A DNA stretch of 64,000 nt, from contig CAMLSX010000008.1 of assembly GCA_946484175.1 (NCBI GenBank), positions 1 through 64,000 on the forward strand. Reading direction: 5' to 3'. The DNA is from an uncultured Clostridia bacterium. Its GTDB lineage: Bacteria > Bacillota > Clostridia > Oscillospirales > Acutalibacteraceae. The translations under genes were made by a program, and so were the position numbers. The notes below the pieces were generated by a model. The model worked only from the letters and a program-made list of their open reading frames with translations, made no database searches and was not told the DNA's origin. Shown piece by piece: positions 56,199-64,000 of this stretch (positions within the stretch are counted from its first letter, which is position 1; the number at the start of each line of letters is the position of its first letter).

Positions 56199-57059
56199 TC
56201 AAAGAGGCAGGTTTCCAAATTCCTTCCAGACCTCGGGCAGAATGGCTGCCAGATTGCTGAACTCCTTGATATTATGGGCAAAGAGTCCCTTGGGAACAAA
56301 ATCGGGAAGCCGGAACCCCTCTGGGAAAATCTTCTGATATTTACCGTCTGCCAGTCCAAAGCCAATCCAGAACCGGGAGGTAAAGAGTACACCGTCCCGA
56401 TAGGGCACCCACTTATGAGTCATCGCAGCAGGACATCCGCCTTCACCAATGGCACACACCATGGACTGACAGGCATCGGTTCCCACGATGGCCGGGTCAT
56501 AACCCAAATCTGCCGGACTCTTAAAACACAGCTTGAGAAAATCCGGGCCGGGGCCTACATCCTCCATGATGTAATGATTCACACCCCAAGTTTTCTGGTT
56601 CATGGGAACCGCCGGATCACACACATAATCCGCACGGTCAGCACGGGCAAAATAATGATCCTCCGGGTCCCAGATCTTATAGCGAAGATCAGAACCAACA
56701 CTGTGCCACGGAAACCACCAGTCCAGCATTTCCCCGGTAACACCGGGCATATAAGTCTGGTTGCACACAAAGCCGGTGCCGTCCTGCGCAATTCCATAAC
56801 CAATCTGGCAGTATTCCCCGTCTTTTCCGCTCAAAAACAGGTTCCGCTCTTCAAAGGGAACAGCGGGAATCTCCGACGGGCCGTTTTCCAGAATGGCCAG
56901 CTTTTCAGCCGGAATGGGAGCCAGCGGCTGCTCAAAAAATCGATAATAAGGAAGAGCTTTTTCTTCCTGGCTTACGCCTACTTTTTTGGCCATTACACAC
57001 ACCTCTTCTTTATGGTTTCTGACGCTTGGCCAGAAAAGCCAGCATCCGATTCCGCACAA
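56199..57059 (-). CDS. DAPG (PhlG)/phloretin hydrolase-like protein
   Basis: GEMLDWWFPWHSVGSDLRYKIWDPEDHYFARAD, NHYIMEDVGPGPDFLKLCFKSPADLG, C-terminal FAHNIKEFSNLA (HxxxE, candidate metal ligands). Confidence 0.8.
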   Translation of the reverse strand: MCGIGCWLFWPSVRNHKEEVCVMAKKVGVSQEEKALPYYRFFEQPLAPIPAEKLAILENGPSEIPAVPFEERNLFLSGKDGEYCQIGYGIAQDGTGFVCNQTYMPGVTGEMLDWWFPWHSVGSDLRYKIWDPEDHYFARADRADYVCDPAVPMNQKTWGVNHYIMEDVGPGPDFLKLCFKSPADLGYDPAIVGTDACQSMVCAIGEGGCPAAMTHKWVPYRDGVLFTSRFWIGFGLADGKYQKIFPEGFRLPDFVPKGLFAHNIKEFSNLAAILPEVWKEFGNLPL

Positions 57060-57528
57060 TATTCAAAAACACGCCTACATACCACACACCCACCAGCATA
57101 GCAGCGGCAATTTGCAAAGGCAGCGTTCCAACTGCGGAAAATCCTCCCGGCGCCATAATGGTCAGGCCAATGGCCCATCCGCACAGCCATGCCGGGCAGA
57201 AAATCCATTTGGGCGCCAAAGAGGAGAAAATCACCGCCAGGCCACCCATTACAAACAGCGTTCCAAACAGCTCTGCATCCGGGTTCCACGGCATGATATC
57301 CATCATCCAAACGGCCAGCCATGCCCAGAAATCTCCCAGCAGGAAGCCGATGGAAATCTTGACTGCATCCGCTGCCTTGTCACCATTGGCTGCGCACAAT
57401 CCGGCACAAATCAATGCGACTGCGCCAGTGGTTACATTCAAGTAGGGCGCCGCCACCGCCCAGATGGGCGGCAGCAGTGCGATACAAAGTGCCAGCGTCA
57501 GAGTTTCCGCTTTTTTCGTCATCCTCAT
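57010..57528 (-). CDS. DUF1097-like membrane protein
   Basis: About 6 TM; TLTLALCIALLPPIWAVAAPYLNVTTGAVALICAGLCAANGDKAADAVKISIGFLLGDFWAWLAVWMM. Confidence 0.7.
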   Translation of the reverse strand: MRMTKKAETLTLALCIALLPPIWAVAAPYLNVTTGAVALICAGLCAANGDKAADAVKISIGFLLGDFWAWLAVWMMDIMPWNPDAELFGTLFVMGGLAVIFSSLAPKWIFCPAWLCGWAIGLTIMAPGGFSAVGTLPLQIAAAMLVGVWYVGVFLNIVRNRMLAFLAKRQKP

Positions 57529-57532
57529 CACC

Positions 57533-60271
57533 TTACTGGCAGTCGGCAATATACTGGGCGATGCTCTCGCCGGCCATACGTCCGGTATTCACGGCAAAGC
57601 CCATGGAGTTTCCGGGCAGGGTGAAGTTGTAGCTGTCGCCGTAAATGGTGTTGGCGTCGGAACCGGCACTGTAAAGGCCTTCAATAGGCATCAGGTTCTT
57701 GTCCAGTACCTCGCAGTATTTATTGATACGGACACCGCCCACAGTGCCGTAAGCGCCCAGATAATATTTACCCACCAGATACTTACCCTTGCCGGTAATG
57801 GGGTGCAGGTACTTCTGGGGCTTGTGGAACTTGCTGTCCACGCCGCAGCGGCACATGGCGTTGTATTCGTCAATGGTGTCCTGAAGCTTTTCGGGGTCAA
57901 TGCCCAGTTTTCCGGCCAGCTCTTCCACAGTTTCTGCTTCAAAGTAGGCCTCATAGCCCTGCTCCACAGCCAGTGCAGCCTGTCCGTCAAAGGCCAGGAA
58001 GGCTTCAGCGGGATGAACGATATCCACGATGTCCGGGCCGTTCTTCTTATACTCTTTCAGGATGCCCTCGTCCATAATGCAGTAAGCATAGTTGCCGGGC
58101 TGTAAGGCAATGGCGTTACCGGCGTAGGTGGTATTGCCCAGATCGCCCTCGTTCATAAAGCGGTCGCCCAGCTGGTTGATAAGCAGGTTGGGCTGACGGA
58201 GCACGGCATCCAGCAGGAACCAGTTCAGGTTGTCGGGCAGCTGGTAAATGGCCTCGATGTTTGCGCCAAACTTAGCAGCGCCCACTTCCCACATCATGTT
58301 CAGACCGTCGCCGGTAATGCCGGGAATCCGGAAGGGGAAGTAGTCCTTGCCAATATGCAGGCCAAATTCTTTCTCAATCATTTCGGGGTTGTTGCCGAAA
58401 CCGCCGGTAGCTACAACCACGGCCTTACCGCGGACCTCAATACCGTTGCCGTCCTTATCCACAGCCACTGCGCCACAAACCTTGCCGCTCTCGGTAATCA
58501 GAGAAGTAGCGGCGGTTTCCAGCAGGATTTCACTGCCCAGTTCCTTGGCGCGCTGGGTCATGGCCTTCACCATGGCGCTGGCTGCACGAGGACCAATGAC
58601 GCCGTTTTCCGGCTTGACAATGTGCCAGGTAGCTTCGGATTCCTTGAAGTACCGGAAAGCACCGGCAAACTCCACGCCCATTTCCTCCAGCCATTCAATG
58701 GTATCGGCGCTCTTGTGGAAGTAGGTCTGCACCACGTCTTCATCCACATGATAATGGGTGTATTCCATGTGCATCTGGATGGCCTTGTCTACGCTCAGGT
58801 TGTTAAAGTTTGCCTTCTGAATCTTGGTGTCAATTCCCAGCGGGCCCATTCCCATATTGGCGGCGCCGCCGGTAGCGCTGGATTTTTCCAAAATTACGGA
58901 TTTCAGGCCATGCTCGCCAACGGTAATGGCAGCAGCCAGACCGGCAGGGCCGCCAGCCACAACAACGACATCAGTCTCGATGGTTTTCATAATCTTCACC
59001 TCAATATGTTTGGGCTGTTCCGTGGGAGCAGCCGTTTGTTTTTCTTCTACAGGAGCTGATTTTAACGGCTGAGCAAATACCCGCTTGCGTTTTATGGAGC
59101 GGTGGGTAGTTTCCTCTCCGATCACTTCTGCGGCAATCTTTGCACCCTTTACCGGAACGGGAGCGGAAGGGAGCTTGGGCAGACGGCCGGGAACGCACTT
59201 CACCGCGTCATGGGTACAGACTTCCAGACATTTTCCGCAGCGGGTGCAGTCAAAGGTATCAATGACAGATACCAGCTCTTTGCCGCCATCAATACACTTG
59301 GCGGGACAAACGGCAATACAGTCTCCGCAGCCGGTGCAGCGCTGGGGATCCACATAGAACTGGCTGAGAGCCAGACAGGCGTTAGCAGCGCACTCCTTAC
59401 GGCGGACATGGGCCATGGTTTCCCCTTCAAAGGCACTCATGGCAGAAAGAGCAGGCAAACCGGCTTCTTCGCCCAAGGTGCAATTACAGGAAACGGTCAT
59501 GGCTTCCCCGATTTCTTTTGCCAACTCCAAATCGGCGGGTTTTGCCCGGCCATTGGAGATATTCTCAAAAATTTCTGCCAGCTGGTACAAGCCTTCTCGG
59601 CAGAAAGTGCATTTGCCGCAGCTCTTTTGCCGCAGGGACAGGATTTCTCTTTTGGCGCCATCCACCGGGCAATCCTTTTCGGTCAGGCGGCGAATCACAC
59701 CGGAGCGGCTGTGAAGCTGTTCCAGGGACAGGCCTTCCAGCTCCTGAGCAGAATAGAAACGGTGGTCGATTAGAATTCCCTTGCACTCCCCTGCCAGCTC
59801 TTTCACCAAACGGGAAGGTTCTTCCTCCGTGGGGGTTTCGCCGTCCAAGGCAACCAACAGGCCGGGAGTATTCCCCATAAGCCGGTCAGCCATAGCGGCC
59901 AGTTCATCCAGACAGAATATCCGGTCATTTTTGTGGAGCATCTTATTTACCAATGCCGCCCGGGTAATGGTCAGGGGAAGCTCTACGATCCCCGCACTGG
60001 CTTCCAGCTCCTGCTGGTTGACCTCACAGTTGACCACCAGCTCGGCGCGTTCCGCTCCGGTGAGCAGGGCTGCAATCTTCAAACCGGCAATCACACCGGC
60101 AGGATTTGCGTGAAGCAGGATATTTTTCATACCCTCCGTGTCGGCATTGTACAGAGCGCCCACCACAGCGCCCGTTAGCGGCTCCATGGAGCCGAAAACC
60201 GCTTCCAATTCTTCTCTGGAGCAGCGGCGCAGCCGATTCAGTGCGTCGGTATTGTTCTGTAACAGACTCAT
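57533..60271 (-). CDS. fusion flavoprotein: NuoF-like FeS domain + 2x[4Fe-4S] ferredoxin + fumarate-reductase-type FAD domain
   Basis: KSCGKCTFCREGLYQLAEIFENI; CTGCGDCIAVCPAKCI, CTRCGKCLEVCTHDAV; VVVVAGGPAGLAAAITVGEHGLKSVILEKSSATGGAANMGMG...GGVRINKYCEVLD...GLYSAGSDANTIYGDSYNFTLPGNSMGFAVNTGRMAGESI. Confidence 0.9.
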   Translation of the reverse strand: MSLLQNNTDALNRLRRCSREELEAVFGSMEPLTGAVVGALYNADTEGMKNILLHANPAGVIAGLKIAALLTGAERAELVVNCEVNQQELEASAGIVELPLTITRAALVNKMLHKNDRIFCLDELAAMADRLMGNTPGLLVALDGETPTEEEPSRLVKELAGECKGILIDHRFYSAQELEGLSLEQLHSRSGVIRRLTEKDCPVDGAKREILSLRQKSCGKCTFCREGLYQLAEIFENISNGRAKPADLELAKEIGEAMTVSCNCTLGEEAGLPALSAMSAFEGETMAHVRRKECAANACLALSQFYVDPQRCTGCGDCIAVCPAKCIDGGKELVSVIDTFDCTRCGKCLEVCTHDAVKCVPGRLPKLPSAPVPVKGAKIAAEVIGEETTHRSIKRKRVFAQPLKSAPVEEKQTAAPTEQPKHIEVKIMKTIETDVVVVAGGPAGLAAAITVGEHGLKSVILEKSSATGGAANMGMGPLGIDTKIQKANFNNLSVDKAIQMHMEYTHYHVDEDVVQTYFHKSADTIEWLEEMGVEFAGAFRYFKESEATWHIVKPENGVIGPRAASAMVKAMTQRAKELGSEILLETAATSLITESGKVCGAVAVDKDGNGIEVRGKAVVVATGGFGNNPEMIEKEFGLHIGKDYFPFRIPGITGDGLNMMWEVGAAKFGANIEAIYQLPDNLNWFLLDAVLRQPNLLINQLGDRFMNEGDLGNTTYAGNAIALQPGNYAYCIMDEGILKEYKKNGPDIVDIVHPAEAFLAFDGQAALAVEQGYEAYFEAETVEELAGKLGIDPEKLQDTIDEYNAMCRCGVDSKFHKPQKYLHPITGKGKYLVGKYYLGAYGTVGGVRINKYCEVLDKNLMPIEGLYSAGSDANTIYGDSYNFTLPGNSMGFAVNTGRMAGESIAQYIADCQ

Positions 60272-62391
60272 TTTGCCGCCTCCTTTTCATCCTCCATATA
60301 ATCGCTCCAAATCCGATGCCCGGTAATCTGGAACCGCAGATCACATTGCAGGCAGCGGGAGGCTTCCTGACAAATCTCGTTGTCGGAAATACCGGCGCTC
60401 ACCTGACAGAAATCGCCGCAGCGGTCTCCGGCACAGCGGACGCACTCTTCTTTCCGCTCCAAGTCGCCAAAGCCCTCTACTTTTCCAATAAAGGAATCGG
60501 GGATTTCCACCGGAGCCAACACTTCGCTGATGTCTCCGTCACCGCCCAAAGCCCGGTCAATCTCACTGGCAGCAGCACGTCCGGCTGCCACGGCCTCAAT
60601 GACGGTATGGGTTCCGTACACGGCGTCGCCGCAGGCATAAATACCTTCCACACTGGTTTTCAGGCTGCCCGGCTGTACGGCAATGGAATTGCCCCGGCCC
60701 AGTTCCAGCCCAGATTCTGGGGTAATATCGGTACGCTGTCCCACCGCAAAAATGACAGTATCGGCAGCAATGGTATGTTCGGAATTTTCTTCTTTTTCAA
60801 TGATAGCACGACGGTTCTCATCAAAGGTAAAGGACTTGACATTGCAGAACCGTACACCCTCCACCTTGCCGTCGCCCACAATGGCCTCAAAGGTGTGGGC
60901 GGGATGGATGTGGATGCCCTCTTCCTGAGCCTGCTGGATTTCTTCCTCGTCGGCCAGCATTTTCTCCCGGGCTTCCAGACAGGCCAGATGGATTTCCTCT
61001 GCACCCAAACGGCGTGCTGTACGAGCACAGTCAAAGGCCACATTACCGCCGCCCAGCACGATGACACGCTTTCCCATTCCGGTAGGAGCACCCATGGAAG
61101 CATTCCGCAGGAAATCGGTGTTTACCAGCACCCCCGGCAGGTCGTTGCCCTCCATGGCAAGACGCACACCCTTATGGGTTCCCAGTGCCAGCAGCACCGC
61201 GTCATACTCTTTGGCAAGAGCGGTAAAGTCGCTGACCCGGCAATTGGTCTCCACAGTTACGCCGGCATCGCTGAGGTAGGCGGCTTCCCTGGCCACTACC
61301 TCACGGGGCAGACGATAGGCCGGGATACCATAGGACATCTGTCCGCCCAAGGTGGGATAGGCTTCCTTCAAAACGGTTTCATGACCCTGTTTCGCCAGAT
61401 AATAGGCGGCTGTCATACCGGCCGGGCCGCCGCCCACCACGCATACCCGCTTTCCGGTGGCGGGAAGGTGCTTGCTGTTCTTCTTCCAAAGCTCGTTGTC
61501 CGCGTGCTCGGCGGCATAGCGCTTGATGTTGCGAATGGAAACCGGATCGTTGACATCTCCACGGCGGCATTTGCTCTCGCAGGGATGGGCGCACACCCGA
61601 CCCAGACATTCCGGGAAGGGCAGCCGCTCATGCACCACGGCCAGCGCCTCACTGAACTTGCCCTCTTTGACAAAGCGCACATATCGCGGCACATCGGTGC
61701 GGGCCGGACAGGTGGCCTGACAGGGAATCAGGGTATCCTTTTTCTCGATGGGAGTGAACTCTGCCACATCCCGGATGGTGCCGGTGGGACATACCTCGGC
61801 GCAGGCACCGCAGAAGCGGCAGTTGGCGTCTTTCAGAAGCTTGTCATGGAGTGTTCCCACATAGGTTTCCAGCTCTTTTTTGTTGTACTGCAAAGCCCCT
61901 ACGCCCCGCAGATCGTTACAGGCTCGGACACACCGGCCGCACAACACACAGCGGTTCATATCGTGGATCAGCAGGGGATTCTGCTTGTTCTGGGGGAAAC
62001 CTTTGACCCGGGTATTCATCCGGGTGGCGGAAACGCCCATGTACTGAATCAAAGTTTGCAATTCGCAGCGGCCGTATTTGGGACAGGTGGAGCAGTCCTC
62101 GGGATGGGCTGCCAGCAGCAGCTCCATGGCCAACTTGCGCAGCGGGGCGATCTTCTCACTGTTGGTGGTGATTTTCATGCCCTCTTTTGCCTGCAATTTG
62201 CAGGAGGGATACACGCCCTCCATGCCCTCTACTTCCACAATGCACAGACGGCAGGAGCCAATATCCGGCAGGTCGGGGTGATGGCACAGATGGGGAATAT
62301 AAATCCCGTTCTGCAAAGCGGCTTCCAGAAGGTTTGTCCCCTCTTCCACCTGAAGCCGTTTGCTGTCAATTTCGATGGTAACGTTCATCAT
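60268..62391 (-). CDS. HydA/NuoG-like 2Fe-2S/4Fe-4S + GltD-like NAD(P)H:FAD oxidoreductase fusion
   Basis: HLCHHPDLPDIGSCRLCIVEV (2Fe-2S), HPEDCSTCPKYGRCELQ, CVLCGRCVRAC, CRFCGACAEVCPTGTI, CVVGGGPAGMTAAYYLAKQGHETVLKEAYPTLGGQMSYGIPAYRLP, VIVLGGGNVAFDCARTARRLGA, YACGDAVYGTHTVIEAVAAGR. Confidence 0.92.
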   Translation of the reverse strand: MMNVTIEIDSKRLQVEEGTNLLEAALQNGIYIPHLCHHPDLPDIGSCRLCIVEVEGMEGVYPSCKLQAKEGMKITTNSEKIAPLRKLAMELLLAAHPEDCSTCPKYGRCELQTLIQYMGVSATRMNTRVKGFPQNKQNPLLIHDMNRCVLCGRCVRACNDLRGVGALQYNKKELETYVGTLHDKLLKDANCRFCGACAEVCPTGTIRDVAEFTPIEKKDTLIPCQATCPARTDVPRYVRFVKEGKFSEALAVVHERLPFPECLGRVCAHPCESKCRRGDVNDPVSIRNIKRYAAEHADNELWKKNSKHLPATGKRVCVVGGGPAGMTAAYYLAKQGHETVLKEAYPTLGGQMSYGIPAYRLPREVVAREAAYLSDAGVTVETNCRVSDFTALAKEYDAVLLALGTHKGVRLAMEGNDLPGVLVNTDFLRNASMGAPTGMGKRVIVLGGGNVAFDCARTARRLGAEEIHLACLEAREKMLADEEEIQQAQEEGIHIHPAHTFEAIVGDGKVEGVRFCNVKSFTFDENRRAIIEKEENSEHTIAADTVIFAVGQRTDITPESGLELGRGNSIAVQPGSLKTSVEGIYACGDAVYGTHTVIEAVAAGRAAASEIDRALGGDGDISEVLAPVEIPDSFIGKVEGFGDLERKEECVRCAGDRCGDFCQVSAGISDNEICQEASRCLQCDLRFQITGHRIWSDYMEDEKEAAK

Positions 62392-62418: not shown

Positions 62419-63363
62419 TTATTCGATGCCCTTGAACGTCTTTTTCACGAACTGCTCTTTTCTTTCCTGTACCAGCTTGATTTTTTCCGGATCGGAGAAG
62501 AAACCGCCCTGCGTCTGGGCAATCTCTTCCAGATGCTTGGCCCGTCCGGCCACCGTAGTACGATCCTTCAGAAGGCCGTCTTCCTGAATGACAAACTTCC
62601 ACTTGCCGTCCTCAGTCTGCTCCAAAGTGCCGCCGGCACCGCAAACCTGACATTCCACCGGGTAATGGAGGCCGTCCCACTGCTTTTCACCCAGCACCAA
62701 AGCATTGCTGTGGCAGTTGGGACACCAGCCCATATCCTCTTCACCCAGCCACTTGCGCTCTTCGGCGGGGGTGTTCACGGCAGTCATGATGTTTTCGCCC
62801 AGCTTCCGGGCACGGGTCATCAGCTCATCGTCCAGCAGGCACTGTCCGGGAGCCGGCACCCGGGTAGCCAGAATCATATCCACCACTTTCATATCGGTGG
62901 TGAACATAGTAGCCTGCAATCCTTCCAGTGCCATAGACTGCCAGGAACGAGTGGAACCGCCCACGGAAATCAGTCCTGCTACCCGGTCACGATGCTGGAT
63001 TGCACCGATCGTCTCCAGGAAAGAGGTCTCATAGCTGAGGCTGCGGTGAGCAAAGGTCAGATAAACGGAGGCGGGCATCAGGTCGTAGGTGGGCACGGAA
63101 AAAATGACCGCATCCTGTTCCAGCATCACGTCCATGATCTTTTTCTTGTCGTCCTTTTTGTCCAGAACACAGCCTGCATATTTACCCATAGACATAGCCT
63201 TGGTACAGGCGGTGCATCCGGTGCAATCCTGAATGTGAAAATCTCGCAGATTAATCATGGTGACCTCTGCCCCGGCTTCCTCACAGGCCATCAGTGCCTG
63301 TTTCAGCAGAATTTCGCTGTTGCCGTTTTTGCGTCCGGCGGTGATTCCCATTACTTTTGCCAT
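62419..63363 (-). CDS. flavodoxin-fold NAD(P)H-dependent FMN reductase-like protein with C-terminal zinc ribbon
   Basis: MGITAGRKNGNSEILLKQALMACEEAGAEVTMINLRDFHIQDCTGCTAC; CPNCHSNALVLG...YPVECQVCGAGG. Confidence 0.85.
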   Translation of the reverse strand: MAKVMGITAGRKNGNSEILLKQALMACEEAGAEVTMINLRDFHIQDCTGCTACTKAMSMGKYAGCVLDKKDDKKKIMDVMLEQDAVIFSVPTYDLMPASVYLTFAHRSLSYETSFLETIGAIQHRDRVAGLISVGGSTRSWQSMALEGLQATMFTTDMKVVDMILATRVPAPGQCLLDDELMTRARKLGENIMTAVNTPAEERKWLGEEDMGWCPNCHSNALVLGEKQWDGLHYPVECQVCGAGGTLEQTEDGKWKFVIQEDGLLKDRTTVAGRAKHLEEIAQTQGGFFSDPEKIKLVQERKEQFVKKTFKGIE

Positions 63364-63585: not shown

Positions 63586-64000
63586 ATGCCGCAAACCGAT
63601 CTTCGAGTGGTGAAAACGCTGAAACAGATTGATCAGGCATTACTGGAAAGTTTATCCGAAATGCCTTTTGAAAAAATCACCGTGGACCAACTGTGTCAGA
63701 CGGCTATCATCAACCGCTCCACTTTTTACAAATACTACAAAAGCAAATACGACTTGATGGAGCAGTATTTAAAACGGACGCTGACCGAATTTCAAAAACA
63801 GATGAATGTAGCGTTTATCAATGCTTCTCCGGAAAATATCCATCATCTGATTTATCAGAAAAACTTTGAAAAAGCCCTGCGGTTTATTTACAAGAATAAA
63901 AAAGAATACCAGATTCTGTGGACCATTCCCACGGAATACGGTGTATTCAGCGAGATGGTACAGGTTATCCACGATAATATTCTGGATAAACTCTGCACTG
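63586..64000 (+). CDS. TetR/AcrR family regulator (truncated by window end)
   Basis: LKQIDQALLESLSEMPFEKITVDQLCQTAIINRSTFYKYYKSKYDLMEQYL HTH; divergent from the redox operon. Confidence 0.88.
   Translation, partial: MPQTDLRVVKTLKQIDQALLESLSEMPFEKITVDQLCQTAIINRSTFYKYYKSKYDLMEQYLKRTLTEFQKQMNVAFINASPENIHHLIYQKNFEKALRFIYKNKKEYQILWTIPTEYGVFSEMVQVIHDNILDKLCT

Follow-up and report, generated by a model that had tools for sequence, protein, structure and literature searches.

The window, that is, the whole stretch of 64,000 nucleotides analyzed here, carries a set of genes in the order TetR regulator, FLR-like flavone reductase, 707-aa protein, 912-aa protein, DUF1097 protein and phloretin-hydrolase-family protein (PHY), the last five of them co-directional (Table 1). 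The sequence-only reading had stopped at the 707- and 912-aa proteins, to which three co-directional partners and the divergent TetR gene are now added. Its coordinates for these two minus-strand ORFs were exact, the ORFs overlap by four bases (60268-60271), and the domain architecture that it had described agrees with the Pfam matches given below. For the FLR-like gene, the mechanical ORF extends to 63408 and the ATG at 63363 was used. No noteworthy operator-like repeat was found in the TetR-FLR intergenic region, and the scans for promoters and terminators gave results near chance. The DUF1097 protein is possibly an uptake or efflux partner, perhaps a transporter of phenolics. A second DUF1097 gene is located near a weak DAPG_hydrolase match in another genome (G391, L049).

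Table 1. Features of the operon and of its two central proteins, in window coordinates.
Feature	Position	Strand	Basis
TetR-type regulator, divergent, running off the window end	63586..64000	+	PF00440; kept in relatives
FLR-like flavone reductase, flavodoxin/WrbA-like, 314 aa	62419..63363	-	PDB 7d38
707-aa subunit: NuoG-type [2Fe-2S]/[4Fe-4S] N-terminal domain and GltD-type FAD/NAD(P)H module; predicted to oxidize NADH	60268..62391	-	Pfam, PDB matches, motifs
707 aa, Fe-S relay (Fer2_4, NuoG 4Fe-4S, Fer4_Nqo3, Fer4_20)	61495..62385	-	Pfam
707 aa, FAD and NAD(P)H Rossmann folds (Pyr_redox_2, 315-604)	60580..61449	-	Pfam, motif comparison
912-aa subunit: truncated NuoF/HydB module fused to FAD_binding_2 reductase domain	57533..60271	-	Pfam
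912 aa, residues 1-190, shrunken NuoF core; Gly-rich FMN loop and EGDPG both missing	59702..60271	-	hhalign, Foldseek
912 aa, residues 190-356, clusters B1 (C218, C221, C224, C264), B2 (C201, S239, H288, C294, C299) and B3/B4 (C312-C352)	59204..59704	-	Pfam, ligand alignment
912 aa, residues 428-912, FAD_binding_2 domain, putatively substrate-reducing; Tyr (Y841, Y881) replacing fumarate-reductase His/Arg	57536..58990	-	Pfam, Fcc3 mapping
DUF1097 membrane protein	57010..57528	-	PF06496, E 2.5e-18; kept in slot among relatives
Phloretin-hydrolase-family C-C hydrolase (DAPG_hydrolase), 264 aa from ATG at 56993	56199..56993	-	PF18089, E 6e-66; PDB 5xe5

The 707-aa subunit is composed of Fer2_4 (residues 3-78), NADH-G_4Fe-4S_3 (85-123), Fer4_Nqo3 (139-205), Fer4_20 (223-299) and Pyr_redox_2 (315-604) domains. 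Its best PDB matches are 9bov_A, 9n5u_A and 8oh5_C (StnC), and the Cys ligands of the Fe-S relay are invariant in all 11 full-length homologues. In place of the NADPH-type YRR stands ...GGGNVAFDCARTARRLGAEEIHLACLE..., and since CLE occupies this position in 12/12 relatives, NADH is the predicted electron donor. In StnABC, the GltD-fold FAD of StnC is non-bifurcating and electrons pass via clusters to B1 of StnB (PMC10482914). K170 of StnC, a ligand position of the FAD-proximal cluster, is conserved in Stn and is Glu in Nfn. The 12 relatives of the 707-aa subunit all present Lys there, the Nfn-type Glu being absent, and they conserve an Arg near the FAD N5 that the non-bifurcating StnC has as well.

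In the 912-aa protein, Pfam recognized the NADH_4Fe-4S domain of NuoF (213-288), two Fer4 domains (306-356) and FAD_binding_2 (434-881, E 1e-50), and the motif SCGKCTFCREG is present. The lack of a NuoF glycine-rich site at the N-terminus, as had been reported before, was confirmed: the Pfam search of residues 1-189 gave zero family matches and the loop is absent. With hhalign, residues 40-86 were aligned to the NADEGDPG...EYP segment of NuoF (E 5e-4 to 4e-3 in a single comparison), and in the NuoF profile alignment both the FMN loop and the NAD loop (NADEGDPG) of NuoF/BfuB are missing. The top Foldseek matches of the AlphaFold model were HydB, StnB and NfnB. This model, obtained from a 13-row alignment, reached a pLDDT of 61 overall and of 80-95 over most of residues 1-300; as it is good over the latter region only, no active-site geometry was taken from it. 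Judged from the profile alignment and the model, residues 1-190 are a shrunken NuoF core, and NADH would have to enter at the GltD module because this subunit has neither the Gly-rich FMN loop nor EGDPG.

The ligands of B1 to B4 are retained, with a Ser (S239) at the Cys/Thr position of B2, and the B2 spacing (H288, C294, C299) is that published for NiFe-Bfu (H525, C531, C536). All B2 ligands, including the His, are kept in 16/16 relatives. The third Cys of B1, intact in the window, is Gly in five of the 16 (L094, L096, L016, L018 and L097), and C315 is Ser in L008, L010 and L063; this single-ligand variation suggests altered or 3-Cys clusters. Electrons would thus travel from NADH to the GltD-fold FAD, over two [4Fe-4S] clusters to the NuoG-type clusters including the [2Fe-2S], and from these through B1/B2/B3/B4 of the truncated HydB-like module to the FAD of the FAD_binding_2 domain, where a C=C or C-O bond of the substrate would be reduced. 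In other words, the module that in HydABC and Stn reduces ferredoxin would have lost its FMN site and would act as a wire, its B1-B4 clusters ending at the fused FAD domain and not at ferredoxin. Both N-termini are hydrophilic and, by eye, do not present a signal-peptide-like stretch, as had been stated. The soluble chain from NAD(P)H through GltD and Fe-S clusters to a flavin, distinct from the secreted FMN-linked reductases, is supported by our analysis, and so is the earlier suggestion of an ene-reductase.

A fumarate-reductase-type active site had also been proposed. The FAD_binding_2 family membership and the high rank of 1d4d and 6t85 in the PDB matches of the domain would favor such a carboxylate reductase, of the fumarate, urocanate or cinnamate type. 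However, when Fcc3 was mapped on the domain, H365, R381 and R402 fell on I675, L691 and T714, H504 on Y841, and R544 on Y881 or, with a different alignment program, on T884; the His and Arg of these five catalytic or substrate positions are all missing in 19/19 relatives, among which Y881 is invariant. The sequence-only reading had itself named the absence of such catalytic residues as an outcome that would refute it. The residues found exclude a fumarate-like mechanism, and we rejected the fumarate, urocanate and cinnamate reductases as candidates, leaving a carboxylate reductase of this type with hardly any probability. Since the carboxylate-binding Arg residues are missing, an uncharged phenolic substrate fits, and we infer a Tyr acid/base chemistry, which presumably recalls that of ketosteroid dehydrogenases. 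The best family model of the domain is the vinylphenol reductase VprA (NF053717), at 306.7 bits and below its curated cut-off of 600. An Oxidored_FMN barrel (PF00724) was not detected by Pfam in either subunit.

Regarding the partners, the sole PDB match of the FLR-like protein (FldX) at E<=1 is the crystallised FLR of F. plautii (7d38, E 1e-31, full length), to which it is about 30% identical. It keeps the FLR residues S147, W149, H271 and I275, the last three of which, as alanine mutants, cause a strong loss of activity, and we consider it a putative flavone reductase. PHY gives 222.6 bits with PF18089 (cut-off 22.7) and matches the phloretin hydrolase 5xe5 (E 8e-21) and also PhlG (3hwp), with about 30% identity to the characterised phloretin hydrolase. 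In the alignment with 5xe5, its H135, E166, H215 and H262 (numbered on the ORF) fall on the His/Glu positions of the metal site, taken to be metal ligands from what is known of PhlG. A DAPG hydrolase proper was discarded, with 75.8 of the 600 bits of the PhlG equivalog, and the protein was assigned to the broader phloretin-hydrolase family.

The locus search gave 11 related loci. Orthologues 60-94% identical and with the gene order kept are found in many genomes, and the two-protein arrangement is therefore not due to chance. The organization FLR-707-912-DUF1097-PHY is present in Gemmiger, Fournierella and uncultured Clostridia, in some cases with losses or contig ends, and relatives in Anaerofilum carry the unit as well, which spans several families. 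Whole-genome searches found the operon in G353, of another family and 99% complete, and in G533. In G843 (L094) and G827 (L096) the order is PHY-FLR-FAD-GltD-FeS and the counterpart of the 912-aa protein is formed by two genes, a split also observed in L016, L017 and L093; the Fe-S subunit of L016 and L018 has just 186-213 aa and does not contain the NuoF core. The split and fused forms, together with the four-base overlap, argue that the parts work as one complex, in which the two subunits would be in contact. In the tree of the FAD domain, two separate, well-supported clades are linked to FLR/PHY, which points to either two origins of this link or an old one.

Three-gene sets with GltD, FeS and FAD_binding_2 proteins are also found in other Clostridia (L093:6848-11167, L097:5448-10701 and L098:9007-13287), the one in L097 adjoining a cobalamin-binding protein. 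As these sets have no FLR/PHY neighbors, the scaffold is not specific for flavonoids, and they would represent a wider family of NADH-driven reductases. In a Clostridium MAG, the gene before the 707/912 pair encodes a divergent DAPG_hydrolase-family protein (L012:7067-7873, 26 bits), which may indicate that the substrate is another one in that genome. In Gemmiger An194 (G533), a deletion has left a hybrid gene to which DUF1097 contributes its beginning and PHY its C-terminal half (L013:12755-13203), so that the pathway of this strain may end with the dihydrochalcone.

Another aspect to mention is the slot between FLR and PHY. In three genomes of group g175, an FLR-like gene (68-69%) and PHY enclose a 663-aa protein made of Oxidored_FMN and Pyr_redox_2, that is, of the Fcr/enoate-reductase (OYE) type. 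By content these genomes are Flavonifractor-like, since two of them have a further FLR (58-60% identity with 7d38) adjoining a chalcone isomerase (CHI) that matches PDB 4d06; Flavonifractor-like genomes thus present two FLR types, one by CHI (L100, L101) and one by OYE and PHY (L060, L061). Three FLR-like genes (L063, L102, L103) were seen in G353. In C. butyricum, FLR, Fcr and Phy are reported to be consecutive, without CHI (PMC11868195). As both occupy the FLR-X-PHY slot, the complex stands where the OYE-type Fcr stands elsewhere. Eleven loci, not independent because those of Gemmiger and Fournierella are close relatives, have a FldX-type FLR near PHY: three carry the OYE protein (L057, L060, L061), eight the complex (the window, L008, L009, L011, L013/G533, L063/G353, L094/G843 and L096/G827), and none both or neither. 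L099 is a further weak case, with FLR-like (26%), FAD domain and PHY (38%). Judging from these sequences, the complex is most likely a non-orthologous replacement of Fcr/EnoR and probably an unrecognized enzyme of the middle step.

CHI was not found at E<=1e-5 in G353, G533, G843, G982-G987 or the window's own genome, the last being only 61% complete, while G827 has the complex plus a 31% CHI homologue. A close OYE orthologue was not found in the near-complete carriers G353, G533 and G843; slot-like OYE proteins (93-100%) are confined to the g175 genomes, and in the operon carriers OYE proteins are either absent or of <=35% identity. A CHI-free route implies either that the flavanone is cleaved directly, as described for Fcr, or that the spontaneously opened chalcone is used.

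In the G843 cluster (L094), PHY and FLR are separated by one gene, a spacing that may resemble the one reported for C. ljungdahlii CLJU_c30220/c30240; a literature search on the neighboring C. ljungdahlii locus tags returned nothing besides flr itself. The cluster opens with SDR, cyclase (PF04199), BKACE (PF05853), thiolase and CoA-transferase genes followed by PHY, so that phloroglucinol-degradation genes, PHY, FLR and the split reductase lie within 14 kb (L094:579-14032). The first three match PGR, DPGC and TAL, respectively, whose phloroglucinol pathway is proven in C. scatologenes (PMC10470551).

Taken together, we propose, with a probability of about 0.6, that the 707/912 proteins form a cytosolic NADH:flavonoid reductase complex within a flavonoid-degradation operon, acting as a flavanone-cleaving or as a chalcone reductase. 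This proposal is based on the FLR-like and PHY-family genes, which lie on either side of the complex and accompany it in relatives; on the slot replacement, with exactly one of the two reductases in 11/11 loci; on G353, G533 and G843 lacking CHI and a close OYE orthologue; on the two FLR/PHY-linked clades of the FAD domain; on the PGR-, DPGC- and TAL-like genes added in L094; and on the lost carboxylate-binding Arg together with the NADH and non-bifurcating signatures. FLR would convert a flavone or flavonol to the flavanone or flavanonol, the complex would then open the flavanone C-ring reductively or reduce the open-ring chalcone, giving the dihydrochalcone, and the PHY-family hydrolase would split the latter into phloroglucinol and hydroxyphenylpropionate. 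Against this proposal, the distant (<=35%) OYE-family proteins of the operon genomes could serve instead, and the substrates of the PHY family vary. The identity of just about 30% between FldX and the crystallised FLR, the relatives of the complex that lack FLR/PHY neighbors, the CHI homologue of G827 and the incompleteness of the window's own genome likewise speak against it. The searched literature held no assayed enzyme of the 707/912 kind, nor any paper in which 'phloretin hydrolase' and 'fumarate reductase' appear together.

The same NADH-driven Fe-S/FAD ene-reductase could act on another phenolic, such as a vinylphenol, a hydroxycinnamoyl compound or an acylphloroglucinol, with the FLR-like and PHY-like partners working on non-flavonoid phenolics. 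The VprA match at roughly half its cut-off, the identity of only about 30% of both partners to characterised members and the relatives unlinked to FLR/PHY point in that direction; however, each member of the trio of FLR, reductase and PHY corresponds to a step of the flavonoid route already known, and elsewhere the identical slot is taken by the OYE-type Fcr, so that we regard this alternative as unlikely. It could also be argued that the complex is FLR's electron donor, delivering NADH electrons to its FMN, the FAD_binding_2 domain being secondary: the two sets of genes are adjacent, and the published FLR assay relied on an FMNH2-generating system (PMC7862272), which leaves room for a different natural donor. 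Yet FLR occurs without the complex in the OYE-slot genomes and beside CHI, while the FAD reductase domain, complete and conserved, can do without FLR, as in L093 and L098, which makes the donor role very improbable.

The sequence-only reading had further considered electron bifurcation, in which NADH oxidation would be coupled to an exergonic reduction of the substrate and an endergonic one of ferredoxin. The parts are indeed homologous to those of the bifurcating Stn/Nfn-ABC/Hyd complexes, and among the B2 ligands kept in 16/16 is the His that has been described as characteristic of BfuB in bifurcating enzymes. Nevertheless, the Bfu core depends on FMN and on BfuC: the NuoF loops for FMN and for NAD are both lost, and Pfam found no BfuC/NuoE-type [2Fe-2S] subunit among the operon proteins. 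In addition, the GltD arm bears in 12/12 the Lys of StnC, whose FAD is non-bifurcating (PMC10482914), and not the Nfn Glu, and the clusters on the ferredoxin side form one polypeptide with the FAD reductase. We therefore did not retain this option, which appears quite improbable.

Returning to the NADH:flavonoid reductase, it may constitute a second, unrelated type of enzyme for anaerobic flavanone C-ring cleavage, in which a bifurcation-type NADH/Fe-S apparatus, stripped of FMN, is wired into an FAD_binding_2 reductase and flavanones are converted without CHI directly to dihydrochalcones. We advance this tentatively, at somewhat less than an even chance; if true, the GltD-FeS-FAD family at large would form a toolbox from which other phenolics, too, are served with cytosolic reductases driven by NADH. 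Gut flavonoid metabolism is surveyed with the sequences of OYE-type Fcr/EnoR and of CHI. Should the complex perform the middle step, Gemmiger, Fournierella, related Oscillospirales and the Clostridia with the split complex would have been missed as flavonoid degraders and as producers of phloroglucinol and phenylpropionate, and a ferredoxin-reducing bifurcation module would be convertible to a plain electron wire by loss of its flavin site.

Compared with known systems, the complex shares with Fcr/enoate reductase the FLR-PHY slot and, by prediction only, the overall reaction, but Fcr unites an OYE/FMN barrel (PF00724) and Pyr_redox_2 in one protein, whereas the complex is a two-subunit NADH-FeS-FAD_binding_2 chain. 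With the Stn/Nfn-ABC transhydrogenases (8oh5, 9bov, 9n5u) it has in common the GltD fold, the NuoG-type clusters that pass electrons to a HydB-like Fe-S module, and the K170-type ligand; it differs in having no FMN domain, StnA/BfuC or molybdopterin-like domain, in CLE replacing the NADPH YRR and in the added terminal FAD_binding_2. Furthermore, the NuoG part of the 707-aa subunit is contiguous and N-terminal, while in StnC and subunit A of Nfn-ABC it is split around GltD. The ligands and spacing of B1-B4 are common to the 912-aa protein and the Bfu/HydB module, but in the former the FMN/NAD loops are deleted and the ferredoxin-side clusters are fused to a reductase. The FAD_binding_2 fold is shared with flavocytochrome c3 fumarate reductase and urocanate reductase; in contrast to these, the complex is cytosolic, has no haem or FMN donor domain, and Tyr/Thr replace the catalytic His/Arg. 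VprA (NF053717), the best model of the FAD domain at half the curated cut-off, comes without an Fe-S/GltD partner. Finally, the operon partners, known here from their sequences, are homologues of F. plautii FLR (7d38) and of phloretin hydrolase (5xe5), each at about 30% identity and with the key residues kept.
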